From assembly GCF_003851125.1 (NCBI RefSeq), contig NZ_BGOW01000029.1:1-48293 (forward strand): a stretch of DNA of 48,293 bases. Direction: 5' to 3'. Below the pieces are notes generated by a model that worked only from the letters and a program-made list of their open reading frames with translations, did not search any database and was not told the origin of the DNA. Of the stretch, positions 9,741-20,843 are shown one piece after another. Every line of letters begins with the position of its first letter. The stretch's first letter is position 1. The translations under genes were made by a program, and so were the position numbers. This DNA is from Sulfuriferula multivorans. GTDB lineage: Bacteria; Pseudomonadota; Gammaproteobacteria; Burkholderiales; Sulfuriferulaceae.

Positions 9741-10205
9741 TCAGAGAAACCGGTCCAGCAGTTTGCGGCTGGCTTTGTCCAGGGCGTTCAGGTCACGAAT
9801 CAGGAACTGGATGCCGTGGCTGTCGGCGATGAGCAGGCTGGATGCGCCGAGTCGGCGAATATCGTCTTCGCCTTTCAGCACGAAACTGGTATCGCCGCGG
9901 TCTGTTTCCACCTCCCAGGTAGTCGGGGTAGCGAAGCTGGATACGTGACGCAGGCGGCGAATCTCGGGCACGAACTCGCGGCTTGCCAACTCCTCCTCCA
10001 CCAGCGCGCGTGCATCCCCGGGCAAATCGCTCAGATGCTCGACCCACGCCAGTTCGTGACCATCCGCGCTCAGCAAGGCGATGCCCTCCTGAGGCGCGGC
10101 GATGGGAAAGGCGCGCACCGGCACCACGTTTTCGTGAACCTTGCCGTCGGACGCGATGAGAACCAGCTGGTCGAAGGGGTTGCGGTTTATTTTGAAATTA
10201 ACCAT
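9741..10205 (-). CDS. DUF1854 family protein linked to cyanophycin loci
   Basis: A 154-aa soluble protein of the DUF1854 family, recognised by the PVRAFPIAAP stretch, the ASREFVPEIRR stretch and the C-terminal LIADSHGIQFLIRDL...LLDRFL. Its biochemical function is unknown. It follows the ABC exporter on the same strand, separated by a 180-bp gap that holds a palindromic repeat. Members are known to co-occur with cyanophycin synthetases and this exporter, which fits here. The start MVNFKINRNPF is preferred because the frame upstream translates the repeat element. It may be an accessory factor of the exporter or of cyanophycin metabolism; this is inference. Confidence 0.85.
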   Translation of the reverse strand: MVNFKINRNPFDQLVLIASDGKVHENVVPVRAFPIAAPQEGIALLSADGHELAWVEHLSDLPGDARALVEEELASREFVPEIRRLRHVSSFATPTTWEVETDRGDTSFVLKGEDDIRRLGASSLLIADSHGIQFLIRDLNALDKASRKLLDRFL

Positions 10206-10248
10206 GGATATCCCAGTGGTATGGGTCATCACGGAAAAAGCAATCGAA

Positions 10249-10368
10249 GCCACAGAGAACACAGAGGCCACAGAGTGGACGCGGGTTTGGAGAAAAATTA
10301 TTTGCTCCTGAAGGACGCGCCTGGAAACGCCGCCCACACGTTGTTGTTACGCGGTGCTCTCCGTGGCC
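10249..10368. repeat. Imperfect palindromic intergenic element (CCACAGAG type)
   Basis: The left arm around 10249-10277 contains GCCACAGAGAACACAGAGG and a second CCACAGAG. The right arm at 10351-10368 is close to its reverse complement (GGCCACGGAGAGCACCGC when inverted). The element fills most of the gap between the ABC exporter and DUF1854 genes. Similar CCACGAA/CACAGAG arms occur near 2530 and 18276. Confidence 0.6.
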
Positions 10369-10385: not shown

Positions 10386-12692
10386 TCATGACTTAGCCAA
10401 TCCATCGCTCAACACGATTGCGTTATCTACATCCACATCGTCCAGATCCGTGTCCACGTTGCGCGCCTGGGCCTGATACAGGCGGTAGTAGGCCCCTTCG
10501 CGCGCCATCAGGTCTTCGTGCTTGCCGACCTCGACAATCTGGCCGCGATCCATCACCACCAGCCGATCGGCACGGCGCAACGTGGAGAGACGGTGGGCAA
10601 TGGCGATGGTGGTACGGCCGAGCACCAGATTGTCCAGCGCCTTCTGGATTTCCTTTTCGGTTTCGGTATCCACCGAGGAAGTGGCTTCGTCGAGGATGAG
10701 TATGCGCGGGTCGATGAGCAGCGCCCGGGCAATCGAGATGCGCTGGCGCTCGCCGCCGGATAGCCCGTGACCACGTTCGCCGACCAGCGAATCGTAGCCT
10801 TGCGGCAGCCGCAGTATGAATTCGTGGGCATGGGCGGCGCGCGCTGCGGCAATGATCTGGTCGCGCGAGGCATCCTGTTTGCCGTAGGCGATATTCTCGG
10901 CAATGGTGCCGAAGAACAGGAACGGCTCCTGCAGTACCAGGCCGATATTGCGCCGGAATTCGGCTACCGGCAGCGAACGGATATCCACGCCTTCCAGACG
11001 TATCGAGCCTTCGGTCACATCATAGAAACGGCAAATCAGATTGACCAGCGTGCTTTTGCCCGACCCGCTATGCCCTACCAGTCCGATCATCTCGCCGGGC
11101 GCGATGGCGAGATTGACGCCGCGAATCACCGAGCGGTTGCCGTAGCGGAAACCCACGTCCTGCAGTTCGATGCTGCCGGCCACCTGCTCCAGATGCACGG
11201 GTTTGGTCGGCTCGGGAACGCTGGACACATGATCGAGGATGTCGAAAATACGCTTGGCCCCAGCTGCGGCTTTCTGCGTTACCGAGACGATGCGGCTCAT
11301 GCCGTCAAGCCGGGTATAGAAGCGGCTGATGTAGGCCAGAAAGGCAGTCAGCACACCCACCGTGATCTGGTTGGTGGAAACCTGCCAGATGCCGAACGCC
11401 CACACCACCAGCAATCCCACTTCGGTGAGCAGCGTAACCGTAGGCGAGAACAGCGACCAGATCCTGTTGATGCGGTCATTGACGATCAGGTTATGCCTGT
11501 TGGCCTCGCGGAACCGTGCCGCCTCGCGCCGTTCCTGGGCGAAGGCCTTGACCACACGGATACCCGGGATGGTATCGGCGAGAATGTTGGTGACTTCCGA
11601 CCAGACCCGGTCGATTTTTTCGAAACCGGTGCGCAATCTGTCGCGCACCACATGGATCATCCAGGCGATGAACGGCAGCGGCAGCAATGTCACCAGCGCC
11701 AGCCACGGGTTGATCGACACCAGGATCGCCGTGGTCATGATGATCATCAGGATGTCGGTGGCGAAATCCAGCAGATGCAGCGACAGGAATACGCAGATGC
11801 GGTCGGTCTCCGAACCGATGCGCGCCATCAGGTCGCCGGTGCGCTTGCCGCCGAAGTATTCCAGCGAGAGTTGCATCAGGTGTTCGTAGGTGGTGGTGCG
11901 CAGATCGGCCCCGATGCGCTCGCTGACCCGCGCCAGGATATAGGTACGTGCCCAGCCCAGGCCCCAGGCAAGCAGCGCGGAGCCGAACAGCCCGGCCAGG
12001 TAGAGTGCGACCAGATGCACATCGATATGAGCGCCGTTCTGGTAGGGAATCAGCACGTTGTCCATCAACGGCATGGTGAGATAAGGCGGCACCAGCGTGG
12101 CGGCAGTGGAGGCGAGGGTCAGCAGAAAACCGGCCAGCAACTGATTCCGGTAAGGTTTGGCAAAGCGCCATAGCCGGAACAGCGTCCAGGTCGAAGGTGG
12201 CACATGCGCCTCTCTGGCGCAGAGGGCGCACTCATCCTGACCCGGCTCAAGCGCTGTCTTGCAGTTCGGACAAACCGCCACCGCATCACCCTCTACCGGC
12301 TGGCCGGACACCTGGCTGTCAAGCTGTCGTTCAAACGCGGCAATCACGCGCAGTGCTGCCACATTGCGTCCCAGCGTATAGCGCCAGCCCGCCAGGCGCG
12401 CCTGCGCATCGCGCAGTTCAAGCGTACCAACCCCGGCATGGTCATGATGAACGAGTGTCAGCCCGGCATGAAAAATCCAGCTATCCCATGTCTTCTCAGC
12501 CATGGTCCTGGCCAGAATCCGCTGGTTGGTGACGACCACCAGGCCTTGCGAAAACTGTAGCCGGGTATCGAGATCAAGCTCCACCCATGCCAGGATGTTT
12601 TCCGTATCAGTCAGCGTAGGGGCTATCTCGCCAAGCCAGGGATCGGGCAGCGTGGCATGAGCTGAAGTCACATTAATGGATCGGCTTGTCAT
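10386..12692 (-). CDS. ABC exporter (fused permease-ATPase) of the cyanophycin locus
   Basis: A 768-aa half-transporter. The first 135 residues form a soluble domain with a PH-like feel (GLVVVTNQRIL). A CPNC...CALC zinc ribbon follows (Cys141, 144, 155, 158). Next comes a six-helix exporter membrane domain (about 170-470) and a nucleotide-binding domain. The latter has Walker A GHSGSGKST (about 536-545), signature LSGGERQR (about 642), Walker B ILILDEATSS and the H-loop IAHRLSTL. The fold is that of type IV exporters (MsbA/lipid or peptide exporters). Substrate unknown. It is divergent from cphA' and co-directional with DUF1854. The N-terminal domain plus zinc ribbon is not part of ordinary exporters and suggests an added regulatory or binding role. 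Confidence 0.92.
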   Translation of the reverse strand: MTSRSINVTSAHATLPDPWLGEIAPTLTDTENILAWVELDLDTRLQFSQGLVVVTNQRILARTMAEKTWDSWIFHAGLTLVHHDHAGVGTLELRDAQARLAGWRYTLGRNVAALRVIAAFERQLDSQVSGQPVEGDAVAVCPNCKTALEPGQDECALCAREAHVPPSTWTLFRLWRFAKPYRNQLLAGFLLTLASTAATLVPPYLTMPLMDNVLIPYQNGAHIDVHLVALYLAGLFGSALLAWGLGWARTYILARVSERIGADLRTTTYEHLMQLSLEYFGGKRTGDLMARIGSETDRICVFLSLHLLDFATDILMIIMTTAILVSINPWLALVTLLPLPFIAWMIHVVRDRLRTGFEKIDRVWSEVTNILADTIPGIRVVKAFAQERREAARFREANRHNLIVNDRINRIWSLFSPTVTLLTEVGLLVVWAFGIWQVSTNQITVGVLTAFLAYISRFYTRLDGMSRIVSVTQKAAAGAKRIFDILDHVSSVPEPTKPVHLEQVAGSIELQDVGFRYGNRSVIRGVNLAIAPGEMIGLVGHSGSGKSTLVNLICRFYDVTEGSIRLEGVDIRSLPVAEFRRNIGLVLQEPFLFFGTIAENIAYGKQDASRDQIIAAARAAHAHEFILRLPQGYDSLVGERGHGLSGGERQRISIARALLIDPRILILDEATSSVDTETEKEIQKALDNLVLGRTTIAIAHRLSTLRRADRLVVMDRGQIVEVGKHEDLMAREGAYYRLYQAQARNVDTDLDDVDVDNAIVLSDGLAKS

Positions 12693-12996: not shown

Positions 12997-15198
12997 ATGA
13001 AAAACAAAGACATTCGGTTCCTTCGCATCACCCATCTGTCCGGCCCGAATATATGGACGTATCGTCCAGTGCTGGAGGCATGGGTCGACATCGGCGACCT
13101 CGAGGACTGCCCGTCCAACACCATTCCAGGATTTTACGAACGGCTCACGGCCTGGCTGCCCGGCCTGGTTGAGCACCGCTGCGGGGTGGGCGAACGTGGC
13201 GGTTTTCTGCAACGCCTGCGCGAGGGCACCTGGCCGGCCCATATACTGGAGCATGTCACGCTGGAGTTGCAGACCCTGGCGGGAATGAAAGTCGGCTTCG
13301 GCAAGGCGCGCGAAACCTCGGTACGCGGCATATACAAAGTCGCCGTGCGTACCCGCAACGAACAGGTCGGGCGCGCTTGCCTGCATGACGCACGCGACTT
13401 GCTGATGGCAGCCATCGAAGACCGCCCTTTCGATATGGCGGCCACCACAGAACGATTGCGCAATATGGCCGACAGTCTCTGCCTCGGCCCCAGTACCGCC
13501 TGCATCGTCGATGCGGCTACGGAGTGCCACATTCCCTTTATCCGCCTGACCGACGGTAATCTTGTGCAGCTCGGTTACGGTGCACGCCAGCGTCGTATCT
13601 GGACCGCCGAAACCGACCAGACCGCTGCCATTGCCGAATCGATCGCGAGCGACAAGGATCTGACCAAAAGCCTGTTGCATGCCTGCGGCGTACCGGTGCC
13701 CGAAGGGCGCATCGTCGACAGTCCGCAAGACGCCTGGGAAGCGGCCGAAGACATCGGTCTGCCGGTGGTGGTCAAGCCGGTCGATGCCAATCACGGGCGC
13801 GGCGTGTCGCTCGATCTGATGACGCAGGCGCATGTCGAAGCCGCCTATGCAGTCGCCCGCGCGGAAAGCCGCAAGGTGATTGTCGAGCGCTACGTACCTG
13901 GCCACGAACACCGTTTGCTGGTGGTGGGAGGACGTGTCGTCGCAGCGGCACGAGGTGAAGTTGCATGCGTAACAGGCGATGGTCGCTCGACCATCATCGA
14001 ACTCATCGACAGTCAGTTGAATACCGACCCGCGCCGCGGCGCGACTGAAGACTATCCCCTCGATGTGATACTGATCGACGAGCAACCTGCGATTCGCCTG
14101 GAACTGACGCGACAGGGATTCAATCCGGACTCGATCCCGGCACCGGGTCAGGAAGTAATGGTGCAACGCAACGGAAATGTGGCCATCGATGTCACCGACA
14201 CGGTTCATCCGGAGGTATGCGCGATGGCTACCCTCGCAGCCCGTATCATCGGCCTGGATGTGGCCGGCGTTGATCTGGTGGCGGGGGATATTACGCGTCC
14301 GCTGGAGCCGCAGCGCGGCGCGATCGTTGAAGTGAATGCCGGCCCCGGCCTGCTGATGCACCTCAAGCCCGCACAAGGCGAACCGCGTCCGGTCGGCCGT
14401 GCCATCGTCGACCATCTGATCCCGCAGTCGGAAAACGGCCGTATCCCGATTGTCGGAATCAGCGGCAGCAATGGGACGCTGGTTGCGCGGCTGGTGGCGT
14501 CACTGCTGCATCTCTCCGGGCGATATGTCGGACTTGCCTGCAGTGATGGTCTGTACATGAATCAGCGCCAGGTCGAGCGTGGCAATTGCACCACCTGGCA
14601 AGCCGGCCAACGCTTGCTCATGAACCGTGCGGTGGAGGCTGCGGTATTCGAGCATCCGGCTGTCGCCATCCTGAGCGAGGGGCTGGCCTATGACCGTTGC
14701 CAGGTAGGCGTGGTGACCGACGTCAGCGGTGCCGACACGCTCGGCGAGTTCTACATCAGCGAACCGGATCAGCTCTACAACGTGCTGCGTACGCAAATGG
14801 ATGTGGTGCTGTCCGACGGCGTCGCCGTGCTCAACGCCGACGATGCATTGGTGGTGAAGATGGCGTCATTGTGTGATGGCGCGATTATTTTCTTCGGACT
14901 CGATCCCCAATCTCCGGTCATCACCGAACACCGGGCAAAAGGCGGCCGGACACTGTTTGTACGCGATGGAGAAATCATCCTGGCGAGCGGCGCGAAAGAA
15001 GTTGTTTTTGTCCAGCTATCTGCTTTGCCGCTGACCGGATCGGGACAGCCGGGCCATCATACCGCCAGCCTGCTGGCGGCCATTGGCGTCGCCTGGGCAC
15101 TCGACATCGCACCGGAATTGATTCACGCAGGAGTCGAAACCTATGAATCAGGCCAGTCAGCCCACCCACTTTTCGGACACGCCACGCGAGATCATTAA
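12997..15198 (+). CDS. cphA': Cyanophycin synthetase-like protein CphA' with degenerate Mur-ligase half
   Basis: This 733-aa protein aligns over its whole length with the CphA encoded next door but is 124 aa shorter. The N domain and ATP-grasp domain look intact: LPVVVKPVDANHGRGV, VERYVPGHEHRLLVV and IVEVNAGPGLLMHL. The Mur-ligase half is not. The P-loop GTNGKTT of CphA reads GSNGTLV here (residues 490-496), so the ATP-binding Lys and Thr are gone. The FETARGG segment has become FEHPAVA. The C-terminal Mur domain with its HNPDA motif is missing. Cyanobacterial CphA2, which polymerises beta-Asp-Arg dipeptides, is likewise reduced to one active site, so a similar role is possible (inference). 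A structural partner of CphA is the alternative. It is first in a two-gene unit with cphA. Confidence 0.9.
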   Translation: MKNKDIRFLRITHLSGPNIWTYRPVLEAWVDIGDLEDCPSNTIPGFYERLTAWLPGLVEHRCGVGERGGFLQRLREGTWPAHILEHVTLELQTLAGMKVGFGKARETSVRGIYKVAVRTRNEQVGRACLHDARDLLMAAIEDRPFDMAATTERLRNMADSLCLGPSTACIVDAATECHIPFIRLTDGNLVQLGYGARQRRIWTAETDQTAAIAESIASDKDLTKSLLHACGVPVPEGRIVDSPQDAWEAAEDIGLPVVVKPVDANHGRGVSLDLMTQAHVEAAYAVARAESRKVIVERYVPGHEHRLLVVGGRVVAAARGEVACVTGDGRSTIIELIDSQLNTDPRRGATEDYPLDVILIDEQPAIRLELTRQGFNPDSIPAPGQEVMVQRNGNVAIDVTDTVHPEVCAMATLAARIIGLDVAGVDLVAGDITRPLEPQRGAIVEVNAGPGLLMHLKPAQGEPRPVGRAIVDHLIPQSENGRIPIVGISGSNGTLVARLVASLLHLSGRYVGLACSDGLYMNQRQVERGNCTTWQAGQRLLMNRAVEAAVFEHPAVAILSEGLAYDRCQVGVVTDVSGADTLGEFYISEPDQLYNVLRTQMDVVLSDGVAVLNADDALVVKMASLCDGAIIFFGLDPQSPVITEHRAKGGRTLFVRDGEIILASGAKEVVFVQLSALPLTGSGQPGHHTASLLAAIGVAWALDIAPELIHAGVETYESGQSAHPLFGHATRDH

Positions 15199-15242: not shown

Positions 15243-17816
15243 ATGGAAGTCACACGCATCCGCGCACTGCGCGGCCCCAATTTGTGGAGCAGACACACCA
15301 GCCTCGAAGCGCTGGTGCGATGCTCGGTCGAAGAGTGTCACGTCACCCGGATGTCGGGCCTGGAAGCGCGGCTGCGCGCACGTTTCCCGGAAATCGGCGC
15401 ACTGCGTTCCATTGGCGACGAAGGGGAAATTTCTATTGCGCATGCCCTCGCTTTCGCCGTCCTCGGCTTGCAGGCACAGGCAGGTTGCCCGGTCACCTTT
15501 ATGCATATTGCGCAAACAGTAGAATCCGGGCTCTACCAGGTTGTCGTTGAATACACGGAAGAAACCGTTGGCAGGCTTGCCTTTGAACTCGGCGAGGCGC
15601 TGTGTCGCGCTGCCGCAGAAAACCAGCCATTCGATCTGGATGCCGCCCTAGCCCGGCTGCATGAACTGGACGAAGATGTTCGCCTCGGACCCAGCACCGC
15701 TGCCATTGTTCAGGCCGCGGTCACGCGCGGCATTCCCTATCGGCGCCTGACCGACGGCAGCCTGGTGCAGTTCGGCTGGGGCAGCCGTCAGCGCCGCATC
15801 CAGGCTGCCGAAACCGACCACAGCAGCGCCATTGCCGAATCCATCGCGCAGGATAAGGAACTCACCAAAAAACTGCTGCAGGCTGCCGGCGTTCCGGTGT
15901 CTGTCGGCCGCTCCGTATCGGATAAAGACGACGCCTGGGCAGCCGCCTGCGCAATCGGCCTGCCGGTAGTGGTCAAGCCGCGCGACGGCAACCAGGGCAA
16001 GGGGGTTACCGTAAACATCGTCACGCGCGATCATCTCGACATTGCTTATGCGGCAGCGGCTGAAATCAGCAGCGAAGTGATGGTGGAAGGCTTTATTCAC
16101 GGCCATGATCATCGCCTGTTCGTGGTTGGAAAACATGTCATTGCTGCAGCCCGGCGCGAACCGCCGCATGTAATCGGCGATGGCATCCACAGCGTGCGCA
16201 TGCTCGTGGATCAGATCAACAGCGATCCGCGCCGCAGCGAGGGGCATGCAACCTCGCTGAGCAAGATTCATCTTGACGACATCGCCGTGGCACGCCTGGC
16301 AGTCCAGGGCATGAATCCTGATTCGGTACCCAGCAAAGGAGAGCACGTCACGCTGCGCAATAATGCCAACCTGAGCACCGGGGGTACCGCTACCGATGTC
16401 ACCGATGACGTGCACCCGGAAGTCGCGGCCCGTGCTGTGGAAGCTGCGCAAATGATCGGGCTCGATATCTGCGGTGTGGATGTGGTGTGTGAAAGCGTGC
16501 ACAAGCCCCTTGAAGAACAAGGCGGCGGCATTGTCGAAGTCAACGCTGCGCCCGGTCTGCGCATGCACCTCAACCCTTCCTTCGGCAAAGGACGCCCGGT
16601 CGGCGAAGCCATTATCTCGGCAATGTTCGCCGACGGCGACAACGGCCGTATTCCACTGGTGGCAGTGGCCGGAACCAACGGCAAGACCACCACGGTGCGC
16701 CTGATTGCCCACATGCTTACCCTCAGCGGCAAGCGCGTGGGAATGACCAATTCCGATGGCGTCTACATCGAGCGGCGGCGCATCGACAGCGGCGATTGCA
16801 GCGGTCCGAAGAGTGCCCGTAACGTGCTGCTTCATCCCGACGTCGATGCCGCGGTGTTCGAAACCGCGCGCGGCGGCATACTGCGCGAAGGGCTGGCATT
16901 CGACCACTGCGATGTCGCGGTGGTGACGAATATCGGCATGGGCGATCATCTCGGCCTCAACTACATCACCACGGTGGCAGACCTGGCTGTGGTCAAGCGC
17001 GTCGTTGTTCAGAACGTCGCACCGAACGGCACTGCCGTGCTCAACGCGGCCGATCCGATGGTCGTGCAGATGGCCGCCTACTGTCCCGGTTCGGTGATAT
17101 TTTTCGCGCGCGACATGTTGCATCCCATCATTGCGACGCACCGTGCACAGGGTCACCGGGCGGTCTTTGTTAACGCGGACGCGATCGTCGCAATCCAGGG
17201 CCGCTCGGAATGCCGTATTCCGCTTGCCGAAATTCCCCTTACCCGCAACGGCAGCATCGGTTTTCAGATTGAAAATGCAATGGCTGCCATCGCTGCCGCC
17301 TGGGCGCTAGGTATCCCCTGGGAAACCATCTGCGCCGGGTTGGGCAGCTTCATCAACGACGCGGCCACTGCGCCGGGGCGATTCAATGTGTTCAACTATC
17401 GCGGCGCGACCCTGATCGCCGATTACGGTCACAACCCCGACGCCATACTCGCGCTGGTGAATGCGATAGAAACCATGCCGGCAAAACGCCGCCTGGTGGT
17501 GATTAGCGGCGCCGGCGACCGGCGCGATGAGGATATCCGGCAGCAGACTCAAATTCTGGGTGACGCTTTTGATGAAGTGATCCTGTATCAGGACCAGTGT
17601 CAGCGCGGTCGTGCCGATGGAGAAGTACTGGCCCTGCTGCGCGAAGGGCTTACCGGAGCGAAACGAGCCGTTGCCATCGACGCGATCAATGGCGAATTCT
17701 CTGCGATTGATAACGCGCTCGCGCGGCTCTCACCTGGCGACCTGTGCCTGATCCTGATCGATCAGGTCGATGAGGCGCTGGCGCATATTGCCCAACGCCT
17801 CGCCGAAGCACGCTGA
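15243..17816 (+). CDS. cphA: Cyanophycin synthetase
   Basis: An 857-aa enzyme that makes cyanophycin by ATP-dependent addition of Asp to the backbone (ATP-grasp domain) and Arg to the side chain (Mur-ligase domain). Visible features are an N domain starting MEVTRIRALRGPN, the ATP-grasp loops VVVKPRDGNQGKGV, GFIHGHDHRLFVV and IVEVNAAPGLRMHL, the Mur P-loop GTNGKTT (residues 477-483, Lys481), FETARGG (about residue 539) and the C-terminal DYGHNPDAI. Length and motifs are those of canonical CphA. It lies 44 bp behind cphA', with AAAGGA a little far from the ATG. No cyanophycinase or isoaspartyl dipeptidase gene is in the window. It converges on cueR, 20 bp away. Confidence 0.96.
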   Translation: MEVTRIRALRGPNLWSRHTSLEALVRCSVEECHVTRMSGLEARLRARFPEIGALRSIGDEGEISIAHALAFAVLGLQAQAGCPVTFMHIAQTVESGLYQVVVEYTEETVGRLAFELGEALCRAAAENQPFDLDAALARLHELDEDVRLGPSTAAIVQAAVTRGIPYRRLTDGSLVQFGWGSRQRRIQAAETDHSSAIAESIAQDKELTKKLLQAAGVPVSVGRSVSDKDDAWAAACAIGLPVVVKPRDGNQGKGVTVNIVTRDHLDIAYAAAAEISSEVMVEGFIHGHDHRLFVVGKHVIAAARREPPHVIGDGIHSVRMLVDQINSDPRRSEGHATSLSKIHLDDIAVARLAVQGMNPDSVPSKGEHVTLRNNANLSTGGTATDVTDDVHPEVAARAVEAAQMIGLDICGVDVVCESVHKPLEEQGGGIVEVNAAPGLRMHLNPSFGKGRPVGEAIISAMFADGDNGRIPLVAVAGTNGKTTTVRLIAHMLTLSGKRVGMTNSDGVYIERRRIDSGDCSGPKSARNVLLHPDVDAAVFETARGGILREGLAFDHCDVAVVTNIGMGDHLGLNYITTVADLAVVKRVVVQNVAPNGTAVLNAADPMVVQMAAYCPGSVIFFARDMLHPIIATHRAQGHRAVFVNADAIVAIQGRSECRIPLAEIPLTRNGSIGFQIENAMAAIAAAWALGIPWETICAGLGSFINDAATAPGRFNVFNYRGATLIADYGHNPDAILALVNAIETMPAKRRLVVISGAGDRRDEDIRQQTQILGDAFDEVILYQDQCQRGRADGEVLALLREGLTGAKRAVAIDAINGEFSAIDNALARLSPGDLCLILIDQVDEALAHIAQRLAEAR

Positions 17817-17836: not shown

Positions 17837-18241
17837 CTACGGCGCCGCCAGCCCATCCAGTATCGGGCAGTCCGGACGTTCATCACCGTGGCAGTGCCTG
17901 GCGAGACGTTCCAGCGTGGCCTTCATGGCCTGCATTTCGCGGATTTTTTCATCCAGTTCCTGAATGTGCTGCAGCGCGACGTTTTTCACCTCGCGGCTAG
18001 GGCGCGTGCGGTTTTGCCACAGACTCAGCAGCACGGAAATCTGCTTCATCGAAAAGCCGAGATTGCGCGCCTGTTTGATGAAACGCAGGGTATGGATATC
18101 GCGCTCCGAATAAGTGCGATAACCGGAAAAAGTGCGTGCAGGTTTGGCGATCAAACCAATGGCTTCGTAATGGCGAATCATCTTGGCGGAAACACCGGAA
18201 GCCTGCGCGGCACTGCCGATGTTGCGAGATGGGATGTCCAT
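17837..18241 (-). CDS. cueR: MerR-family Cu(I)-responsive regulator
   Basis: A 134-aa MerR-type activator. The N-terminal winged helix has NIGSAAQASGVSAKMIRHYE and the wing SGYRTYSERDI. A long dimerisation helix follows, then a metal loop CHGDERPDC with Cys117 and Cys125 separated by seven residues, the CueR spacing for two-coordinate Cu(I)/Ag(I)/Au(I). The ATG at 18241 matches the family N-terminus; the frame upstream runs into a repeat. It lies downstream of copA on the same strand. Two matching operators are visible in this window, in front of copA and copZ, so these are its likely targets. Confidence 0.92.
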   Translation of the reverse strand: MDIPSRNIGSAAQASGVSAKMIRHYEAIGLIAKPARTFSGYRTYSERDIHTLRFIKQARNLGFSMKQISVLLSLWQNRTRPSREVKNVALQHIQELDEKIREMQAMKATLERLARHCHGDERPDCPILDGLAAP

Positions 18242-18275
18242 GCAGTCTCCATTCAACCTAAAAAACGGTGATTTA

Positions 18276-18373
18276 TCCACGAAAGACACGAAATTAAGTC
18301 ATTCAATCTTTGAGTGATGAACTACCGCTTGTTATCTTTTTGAGTATTTCGTGTTTTTTGTGTTTTTCGTGGA
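18276..18373. repeat. Imperfect inverted repeat between copA and cueR
   Basis: The left arm TCCACGAAAGACACGAAAT (18276-18294) is matched by an inverted right arm at 18346-18373 that carries about 9 extra bases. The AT-rich spacer has no coding signal. It may act as a weak terminator or processing site after copA. It belongs to the same class of CCACGAA/CACAGAG intergenic elements as the one at 10249-10368. Confidence 0.65.
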
Positions 18374-18392
18374 CCGGCTGCTTTTTCAAGGC

Positions 18393-20813
18393 TCAATCCT
18401 GATTGCGCTGTCCGGCAGGCCGCCAGCGCCGCAGCAGCAGCGCGTTGGACACCACGCTGAAACTGCTGAACGCCATGGCCGCCCCTGCGATCACCGGATT
18501 GAGCAGCCCGAATGCCGCCAGCGGGATACCGACCAGGTTATAGATAAACGCCCAGAATAAATTCTGGCGGATTTTGCGATATGTCCTGCGCGAAATATCG
18601 AGCGTATCCGCTACAAGCCGGGGGTCACCACGCATCAATGTGACGCCGGCGGTATGCATGGCCACATCGGTGCCGGTGGCCATGGCGATACCCACATCCG
18701 CAGCAGCCAGCGCCGGTGCATCGTTGATCCCGTCGCCCACCATCGCCACGACCGTGCCGTCGGCTTTCAAATCGCTTATCGCCTGCGCTTTGTCGGCAGG
18801 CAGGATTTCGGCTTTGAATTCATCTATGCCGAGCGCCTGCGCAACGGCTGCGGCGCTGCCCGGGTTATCGCCGGTCAGCATCACGGTGCGCACGCCTTGT
18901 GCCTGCAGTTGGGCAATGGCGGCTTGTGCCAGAGGCTTGATGGTGTCGCCAAAGGCCAGCAGGGCAAGCAATGTGGCCTGCCCGTCCTTGTTTTGCGCTA
19001 GCCAGGACACGCTGCGCCCGGCTTGTTCGTGGCGGGCAGCGCTGGCGGCGAGCGCGGCGGTGTCGATTCCCAGATTCTGCATCAGACGGCTGCTGCCCAG
19101 AGACAAGGTGACGCTGTCGATTTGCGCTTCTATCCCCAGGCCGGGCAGCGCCTTGACTGTACTGGCGCCCGGCAAGGCCAAGTGCTTGGCGGCGGCAGCT
19201 CGCATTACTGCGCGCGCCAGCGGATGTTCGCTGCCCTGCTGTACCCCCGCTGCAAGACGCAGCATGTCATCGGCGTTCCCCGTTGCTGGCTCCAGTGCAA
19301 CCAGATCGGGGTGGCCTACGGTGAGCGTGCCAGTCTTGTCAAACGCCACGCAGCGCACTGCATGCGCGACTTCCAGCGCTTCGGCGTCCTTGATCAGGAT
19401 GCCGTAACGCGCAGCAACACCCGTGCCGACCATGATGGCCGTCGGCGTTGCCAGACCCAGCGCGCACGGACATGCGATGACCAGTACCGCAACCGCGTTC
19501 AGCAATGCCTGTTGCCAGTCACCCGTGGTAAAGCCCCAGCCCAGCAAGGTGGCCAGCGCGATGACCAGCACCACCGGCACAAACACCTCGCTCACCTTGT
19601 CCACCAATCGCTGGATCGGCGCCTTGGCTGCCTGCGCGTTTTCCACCATGCGGATGATGCGCGCCAGCGTGGTTTCAGCACCCACCGCCAGGGTTTCCAC
19701 CAGCAGCAGACCATCTCCATTCACCGAGCCGCCGGTGACATGAGCATCGGGGCCTTTGCTGAGCGGCAGGCTCTCGCCGGTGATCAGCGATTCATCCACC
19801 TCGCTGTGGCCTTCGCGTATCGCACCATCCACGGCGATGCGCTCGCCCGGACGCACCACGACCAGGTCGCCGACCTGCACGCTAGCGACCGCAACTTCGA
19901 CATCCACGCCATCGCGGCGTACCCGTGCGGTATCCGGGCGCAGCGCCTGCAATGCGCGAATGGCGGCGGCAGTCTCGCGCTTGGCGCGAGTTTCCAGCCA
20001 TTTACCCAGCAACACCAGCGTGATCACCACGGCGGATGCCTCGAAATACAGGTGTTGCATGGCATGACCAGCCGGCACAAACAGCAGGTAAACCGACAGT
20101 CCATACGCTGCCGAGGTCCCCAGCGCCACCAGCAAATCCATGTTGCCGGCACCCGCCTTGACTGCCTTCCATCCCGCACGATAGAAACGCCCGCCGAGCC
20201 AGAATTGCACCGGCGTCGCCAGCGCCCATTGCACCCAACCGGGCAAAGCCCAGTGTTGCCCGAATAGCAAGCCGAACATCTGCGCAATCAGCGGCAAGCT
20301 CAATGCAGCCGACAGCGCCACCGGCCACCATTCCGGCAGGCGCGATGGCTTTGTCTGACTGCCGGCATCCCCGGTCACTGCCGCCACTTCATAACCTGCG
20401 CTGCGTACGGCCTGCTGCAAGGCCTCTTGCGAGATACCGGCATTGGCCATGACACGCGCCTGCTCGGTCGCCAGATTAACCGACACCGAGCGTACGCCAG
20501 GCACCTTGCCCAGCGCTTTTTCCACGCGCCCCACACAGGAGGCACAGGTCATGCCCTGGATGCCGATGTTGATTTCCTGTACTGCGACTTCATAGCCGGC
20601 CTGTTGCACCGCCGCCACCAGATCGGCCGTGGAGACATCCGGACTGGCGCTGATGCTGGCCTGCTCGGTGGCAAGATTCACGCTGACATCGCTGACTCCG
20701 GGTACTTTGCGCAAGCCTTTTTCCACCCGCGCCACGCACGAGGCACAGGTCATGCCGGTAATTTGCAGGCGCTGTTCCTGTGTAGTCTGTTGCGCTGGGC
20801 TTGTAGCTGCCAT
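18393..20813 (-). CDS. copA: Cu(I)-exporting P1B-type ATPase
   Basis: An 806-aa inner-membrane pump that exports Cu(I) from the cytosol. Two N-terminal heavy-metal domains carry GMTCASC (Cys23/26, and a second pair near residue 90). The membrane CPC motif is in [12 protein letters not shown], which marks the Cu+/Ag+ subgroup. The phosphorylation motif DKTGTLT and the hinge [10 protein letters not shown] are intact. The ATG at 20813 has CAGGAG seven bases upstream; a TTG two codons earlier is less likely. A MerR-type promoter with a 19-bp spacer lies 31 bp upstream. cueR follows. Confidence 0.96.
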
Positions 20814-20843
20814 GACCAACTCCTGATAGTGGCTAATGGGTTT

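Follow-up and report, generated by a model that had tools for sequence, protein, structure and literature searches.

Cyanophycin synthetases of the CphA1 type are described as tetramers, and residues of their N-terminal (N) domain and of their Mur-ligase (M) domain, which flank an ATP-grasp (G) domain, contact the chain. In 2022 a cryptic primer-making site was reported as a third site within one cyanophycin synthetase protein (PMC9262961). TmCphA1, which is primer-dependent, becomes primer-independent when it is given in trans either the isolated N domain of SuCphA1 or a SuCphA1 whose G and M sites are dead (PMC9262961). Since the N domain works in trans for a primer-dependent CphA1, a separate subunit that carries this site beside a synthetase that lacks it should be workable. 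Neighboring cphA copies have also been described: activated-sludge bacteria carry two of them together with an ABC transporter and no cphB, and both copies were evenly expressed in Accumulibacter (PMC10687191), while those of Sideroxydans were named CphA1 and CphA2 (PMC5178258). Here we analyzed a gene pair of this kind in a 48,293-nucleotide contig of Sulfuriferula multivorans (NZ_BGOW01000029.1, hereafter called the window). The gene cphA' (12997 to 15198, 733 amino acids) is followed by cphA (15243 to 17816, 857 amino acids) in tandem on the + strand, with 44 bases between them. The two genes probably encode specialized subunits of a split cyanophycin or cyanophycin-like synthetase, in which CphA' would supply the chain-cutting site to a primer-dependent CphA.

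Both open reading frames belonged to the cyanophycin synthetase family (NF010623, 1073.8 bits for CphA' and 1241.6 bits for CphA, cut-off 877). The Pfam N-terminal domain PF18921 matched CphA' strongly (126.8 bits) and CphA marginally (29.4 bits), and Mur_ligase_M and Mur_ligase_C were found in CphA but neither was found in CphA' at an E-value of 0.001. We aligned both proteins to SuCphA1, whose sequence was rebuilt from printed alignments and whose numbering, used below for conserved positions, matched at 26 of 26 checked positions. The residues to be checked were chosen from papers with mutation-tested SuCphA1 and TeCphA1 sites (PMC9262961, PMC9427784). Counts were made over 140 distinct CphA' and 143 distinct CphA proteins, with the equivalent loci L137 and L003, and L154 and L008, counted once. 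The relatives were drawn from 80 loci (the best 80 of 150 confirmed), from genomes of the same order at about one per genus with a listed match, and from 13 genomes outside the order. Genus mates of the window (13 CphA' and 10 CphA sequences), an outside-order pair (L205) and a gene of genome G516 (L204) were kept apart from these counts. As controls we used 21 single CphA1 proteins, of which 10 belong to two families within the order and 11 come from other orders.

The N-domain motif Cx19HxxEH was present in 140 of 140 CphA' and in 0 of 143 CphA; HxxEH was retained without the Cys in two CphA. In the window it lies at 13180 to 13254, on the + strand like all features of the two genes given below, where C62, H82, E85 and H86 of CphA' align with C59, H79, E82 and H83 of SuCphA1 and are predicted to form an endo-cyanophycinase site of the kind described in PMC9262961. 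The general base E82, the zinc ligands C59, H79 and H83 and the second-shell residues H57 and E87 were invariant in every CphA' counted. The corresponding stretch of CphA (15393 to 15473) has neither the Cys nor HxxEH and reads HALAF where CphA' has HIVEH. CphA' thus carries the N-domain motif of primer-independent CphA1s, and CphA, having lost the metallopeptidase, should be primer-dependent when alone. The genus mates agreed on the N site and on the Asp pocket discussed below. The L205 pair (genome G765) is divergent: its CphA' is 664 amino acids long in one continuous frame and has an intact N motif, and its G site (NHGRG loop, omega module and Mg residues) is degenerate or missing, as though CphA' could do without other parts but not without the N site.

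Reciprocal losses were found in the other two domains. In the G domain, the residues for ATP, Mg and the chain end (K220, K261, H267, R309, D431 and E450) were retained together in 137 of 140 CphA'. In the window the ATP-grasp P-loop NHGRG, with the catalytic-type His at position 267, spans 13789 to 13803. Of the Asp-recognition residues R323, S396 and R458, none was left in any CphA' (0 of 140), and all three were present in every CphA (143 of 143). R323 is described as binding the beta-carboxylate of free Asp, and R458 the alpha-carboxylate. In CphA' of the window, Gly replaces R323 (13954 to 13956), the G-omega NLSTGG loop that holds S396 is deleted (14164 to 14184) and Leu replaces R458 (14353 to 14355), so that this protein, like every CphA' counted, departs from CphA1 at the Asp site of the G domain. 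The CphA' of R. eutropha H16 reportedly lacks a portion of a 'J-loop', and this would agree with the deleted loop. The original prediction, made from the window alone, had described the ATP-grasp motifs of CphA' as intact; this is correct for the ATP, Mg and chain-end residues and incorrect for the acceptor pocket of the same domain.

The G domain of CphA is also somewhat unusual for a CphA1. H267 was found in 137 of 140 CphA' but in only 3 of 143 CphA, where Gln stands in 140, and E215 was replaced in every CphA' and CphA counted, with a Glu one residue earlier (214) in at least 95% of each; AbCphA1 and TmCphA1, by contrast, retain both His267 and Glu215 in the 7lgm and 7lgn alignments. His308 is Phe or Tyr in most CphA. 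E215 is described as a contact to the Arg of the chain, supplied by the neighboring protomer (PMC9427784). From the shift of this Glu and the replacement of H308, the polymer recognized by the pair may differ from standard cyanophycin. We also considered complementary half-sites across a G-G dimer, with H267 coming from CphA' and the Asp pocket from CphA. This arrangement was dropped, since the neighbor-supplied residue is E215 (PMC9427784), which is replaced in both paralogues.

In the M domain, the seven residues K499, T500, E558, D585, H586, R731 and H748 were all intact in 143 of 143 CphA and in 17 of 140 CphA'. CphA' of the window lacks K499, H586, R731 and H748, and with them the M site of a CphA1. 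The original prediction had started from this domain, noting that the P-loop GTNGKTT of CphA has become GSNGTLV in CphA' (residues 490-496, 14464 to 14484), that FETARGG has become FEHPAVA (residues 551-557, 14647 to 14667) and that CphA' ends 124 residues early. The sequence bore out all three points, and the proposed loss of the Mur-ligase ATP site and C-terminal domain agreed with the missing Pfam matches and the missing P-loop Lys. As a general trait of CphA', however, truncation and P-loop loss did not hold up: K499 was kept in 84 of 140, and the M lid still aligned over more than 60 residues in 33 of 140, so only some lineages have lost the P-loop Lys and the lid. ETARGG was found in 0 of 140 CphA' and in 138 of 143 CphA. 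What CphA' proteins share throughout is a complete N-site motif, an M domain that is damaged, and a G site that has lost its Asp pocket but still has residues for ATP and the chain end. Invariant positions were few in the M core of CphA' (9 of 236), R603 and D607 among them. These correspond to R598 and D602 of the window (14788 to 14802) and to S603 and E607 of SuCphA1, which contact the chain bound in the N site (PMC9262961). Position 607 is mostly Gln in CphA (97 of 143).

The control proteins carried these sites together. In 21 of 21 single CphA1s, one chain combined the Asp pocket, the ATP residues of the G domain and all seven of the aligned N residues, with the aligned Cys and HxxEH in all 21 and the exact x19 spacing in 6. 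All seven M residues were present in 19 of 21, and in the remaining two T500 was replaced by Ser; ETARGG was found in 15 of 21, the others differing at the second letter only. In a quick-search, unrooted tree of 115 proteins, CphA', CphA, the single CphA1s and a further one-genus group each formed one group, with supports of 100, 99, 98 and 100 in the Shimodaira-Hasegawa-like approximate likelihood ratio test. The G516 gene was placed between CphA' and the rest with a moderate support of 86. This gene is a CphA beside ABC transporter and DUF1854 genes, with the checked N, Asp and M residues intact and Q267, on a contig that ends within the gene; it may represent an unsplit state. Two observations were made in passing. 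At L113-L118 and L121 a single CphA1 gene is followed by a shorter protein (about 575-660 amino acids) that matches the M domain, and a Microvirga ossetica plasmid (L207) encodes a protein whose annotation places it in the CapA family and which includes a CphA-like ATP-grasp region.

We next consider selective constraint, calculated as the ratio of nonsynonymous to synonymous substitution rates (dN/dS) from 27 close locus pairs, with each locus used once and values pooled per domain. For CphA' the ratios were 0.058 in N, 0.054 in G and 0.105 in the M core, and for CphA they were 0.094, 0.052 and 0.063. The domain lost by each paralogue evolves 1.6-1.9 times faster, yet stays under purifying selection. 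The bootstrap intervals of the two M cores were separate, and those of the N domains overlapped at 0.065-0.071. Calculations over all pairs, and over pairs chosen by low dS (pooled 0.21-0.34), were set aside because they mixed in distant pairs with saturated synonymous sites. The M core of CphA' was the fastest domain in all three runs, and the CphA domains differed little in the all-pairs run. The original prediction had judged CphA' to be selected rather than decaying, and the low ratios, that of its ATP-grasp half included, confirmed this judgment.

The gene pair is also linked beyond the window. Both genes shared strand and order in 141 loci (139 distinct), with an estimated spacing of 200 bp or less in 138 of 141 and a median of 49 bp. 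Four things are observed directly: the residue losses are reciprocal, they are universal in the loci that we examined, both proteins are under constraint, and the genes are linked. They point to the following division of labor. The G domain of CphA would add Asp to the backbone, and its M domain would add Arg, or another amino acid, to the side chain. CphA' would be the chain-handling subunit, whose zinc-type endo-cyanophycinase N domain would cut CphA chains into short primers in trans; this priming we infer from the biochemistry of SuCphA1 and TmCphA1. Cutting would probably take place within a mixed CphA'/CphA oligomer. The G domain of CphA' would still bind ATP and the C-terminal carboxylate of the chain but no longer accept free Asp, and its M domain would persist chiefly because it forms one wall of the cutting site. 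As the ATP and chain-end residues of its G domain are conserved, CphA' should do more than cut: it may hold the chain end, or ligate some acceptor that is not free Asp. The hetero-oligomer, the acceptor (if any) and the exact polymer are matters that we infer only. The original prediction had listed a structural or priming partner of CphA among its options. This part was supported, on a basis it had missed, namely the primer site in the N domain of CphA' that is absent from CphA; its emphasis on the M domain covered only part of the picture, and the split synthetase with a primer-making site in CphA' is the better-supported reading.

Several points weigh against a split synthetase. TmCphA1 lacks the N motif, and the available text of PMC9262961 describes it without mention of a CphA'-type partner. 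A complete two-subunit synthetase should give cyanophycin, but reviews state that none could be detected with the R. eutropha H16 pair of homologues (Adames 2013, as cited in the accessible text of PMC8560796 and PMC11362209). The H267A substitution impairs both SuCphA1 and TeCphA1, so that the G site of CphA, with Gln at this position in nearly all cases, may be weak. The strong constraint on the ATP residues of the CphA' G domain exceeds the need of a pure cutter. Arg is likewise the most frequent residue at position 603 of CphA (116 of 143) and of single CphA1s (16 of 21), so that what sets CphA' apart here is that the residue never varies, not which residue it is. When the window was compared with just its nearest relative, dN/dS varied little from domain to domain (N, G and M core 0.120, 0.096 and 0.095 for CphA'; 0.099, 0.081 and 0.106 for CphA), and the domain contrast is therefore a property of the family set and not of this one pair. 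Finally, genome G365 has an N-less CphA for which no CphA' was found, neither in the 2.4 kb upstream nor in the rest of the assembly (87% complete), and G047 has a CphA' but no CphA match.

For the distribution of these genes we surveyed 399 genomes of the order, of which 147 had cphA at an E-value of 1e-100; two candidates were scored per genome, so that 'two matches' is a ceiling. Of 135 genomes classed as pair-type, 60 had adjacent pairs read from sequence, 12 from the window's genus were assigned from match coordinates and the rest were inferred from the match pattern and from kin; G365 and G047, each with only one of the two genes found, are included. G150 was removed from this class (136 to 135) because it has four CphA-like genes of another kind; these matches lie on contig C3 at about 78-96 kb, run from about the G domain onward and sit in a cluster unlike the pair. 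The single-CphA1 genomes within the order come from two families, and one of them, G240, was classed from its genus and fragments. Counts ignore kinship between genomes, and Fisher tests were run on 136 pair-type genomes with phylogeny ignored. A gene for cyanophycinase scored above cut-off in 11 of 11 single-CphA1 genomes compared with 10 of 135 pair-type genomes. In five of these ten (four of genus g54, and G361) an additional CphA locus lies about 4 kb or less from the cyanophycinase gene. In the genus g54 loci L123, L125, L127 and L129, the split pair is accompanied by a separate locus where two more CphA-like genes with a degenerate N motif and Q267 lie near cyanophycinase, and G361 looks similar.

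It is unlikely that CphA' is a CphA2-like ligase whose G domain adds ready-made beta-Asp-Arg dipeptides to the chain end as a form of recycling, with the N site incidental. The dead M site and lost M lid are as described for CphA2 (PMC9427784), the G-domain ATP, Mg and chain-end residues are kept, and loss of R323 would fit a dipeptide acceptor, as beta-Asp-Arg lacks a free beta-carboxylate. R458, which binds the alpha-carboxylate, is lost too, however, and cyanophycinase as the source of dipeptides is scarce in pair-type genomes. CphA2 is described in the accessible text of PMC9262961 as having no N-domain motif, yet no CphA' (0 of 140) lacks it. An AlphaFold2 model of CphA' (mean predicted local distance difference test score 81, predicted template modeling score 0.58, 36 sequences) was nearer to CphA1, which gave the best matches (template modeling score to query 0.66-0.76), than to CphA2 (0.50-0.53). 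The CphA2 structure 8fxh ranked sixth in PDB searches with the G domain and two fragments, and lower with two other ATP-grasp proteins. Since CphA2 lacks Cx19HxxEH, the best reading is that CphA' is not simply a CphA2. The dipeptide polymerase of the original prediction thus finds some footing in the lost M site, the lost lid of the window lineage and the kept ATP site, and little in the N motif or the fold. Its further claim that CphA' is reduced to one active site did not agree with the motifs, as the protein has an intact N-site motif in addition to a partly intact G site.

We think it more doubtful still that CphA' is a missing depolymerase, its N domain mainly breaking down polymer in cyanophycinase-less genomes rather than making primers. 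The cyanophycinase counts given above speak for this, as does the missing beta-proteobacterial cyanophycinase, noted as an open point in PMC10206079. But the N domain of SuCphA1 is slow and yields mainly tetramers, not dipeptides (PMC9262961), the operon-like arrangement places CphA' with a synthetase, and the ATP residues of its G domain are retained. If CphA' were instead a pseudoenzyme that served CphA in structure or regulation and did no more than bind the chain at its N site, then its altered G and M sites and the tetrameric, chain-touching architecture of CphA1s would be accounted for; plain binding would not require all six of the invariant N-site residues E82, C59, H79, H83, H57 and E87, and we consider this improbable. 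That CphA' is a decaying duplicate is highly improbable, since despite its degenerating M domain, the C-terminus lost in many lineages and two incomplete assemblies of the window's genus (G005 and G015) that show only pieces of CphA', its dN/dS is 0.05-0.11 across three domains, the frame in the window is open and cphA' adjoins cphA in the 141 loci read.

Upstream of the pair and on the - strand, the window contains a divergent gene for an ABC transporter (10386 to 12692; NF052233, 'cyanophycin metabolism-associated ABC transporter', 1445.8 bits, cut-off 880) and a gene for a DUF1854 protein (9741 to 10337; NF052234, 'cyanophycin metabolism-associated DUF1854 family protein', 239.4 bits, cut-off 150). 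Downstream of cphA (17837-20819) are a CueR-like regulator and, recognized by eye only, a heavy-metal P-type ATPase gene. Within the stretches fetched for the 80 loci, 74 showed the ABC gene, in some cases truncated where the contig ends, and 72 showed the DUF1854 gene. Six loci had neither: five of them begin, ahead of cphA', where a contig ends or close to such a point, and in L075 neither gene occurs within 6 kb. DUF1854 was found in 132 of 399 genomes, all with cphA: 132 of 135 pair-type, 0 of 11 single-CphA1 and 0 of 252 cphA-less genomes. The three pair-type genomes without it were G322, which has the ABC gene, G136, which has part of it, and G296, which has neither. Outside the order, 11 of 11 single-CphA1 genomes had cyanophycinase and none had DUF1854 or the ABC gene, while G765 (pair) and G516 have both of the latter and no cyanophycinase. 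In the window's genus, both cphA genes were found in 14 of 18 genomes; G005 and G015 have CphA besides the pieces of CphA', and G009 and G010 have neither gene.

A more speculative reading of this neighborhood, and not a likely one, is that the split pair serves as polymerase in an export-linked pathway of its own rather than for a granule store. CphA would build the polymer, CphA' would cut it to short oligomers, and the ABC transporter and DUF1854 protein would export these or a modified polymer. Such a pathway would explain the transporter neighborhood and the scarce cyanophycinase in pair-type genomes, the reverse in single-CphA1 genomes, and the lack of detectable cyanophycin from the C. 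necator genes. In broader terms, a widespread bacterial lineage appears to have moved the primer-making site to a separate subunit, providing a natural test of how priming and polymerization cooperate. The split synthetase could be tested as the reason for the rarity of recognizable cyanophycinases among beta-proteobacteria with cphA1 (PMC10206079) and for the absence of detectable cyanophycin from the C. necator homologues. It would also suggest that cphA expressed without cphA' could limit polymer production.

The closest described counterparts of the pair are the R. eutropha H16 cphA/cphA' genes and the activated-sludge 'Group 1' cluster, which show the same kind of gene pair and ABC neighbor. 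Unlike here, the accessible texts on these and on Sideroxydans do not assign active sites to the two copies (PMC10687191, PMC5178258), and our literature search, which reached few subscription papers, found no statement that active sites are divided between the pair. No CphA2 was found among the plasmid matches listed (60 of 131 and 40 of 135 records). Compared by description and fold rather than by residues, CphA' resembles cyanobacterial CphA2 in its dead M site, lost C-terminal lid and kept G-domain ATP site (PMC9427784), and differs in having the N-domain motif and a more distant fold. CphA of the window is like TmCphA1 in lacking Cx19HxxEH and in keeping the Asp pocket of the G domain and the M residues, but TmCphA1 keeps H267 and E215 and CphA does not. 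With SuCphA1 and TeCphA1 the pair shares the N-G-M architecture, CphA' having the N-site motif and the ATP site of the G domain in common with them and CphA the Asp pocket and the M site; the difference is that these sites are distributed here over two paralogues, neither of which has the full set.

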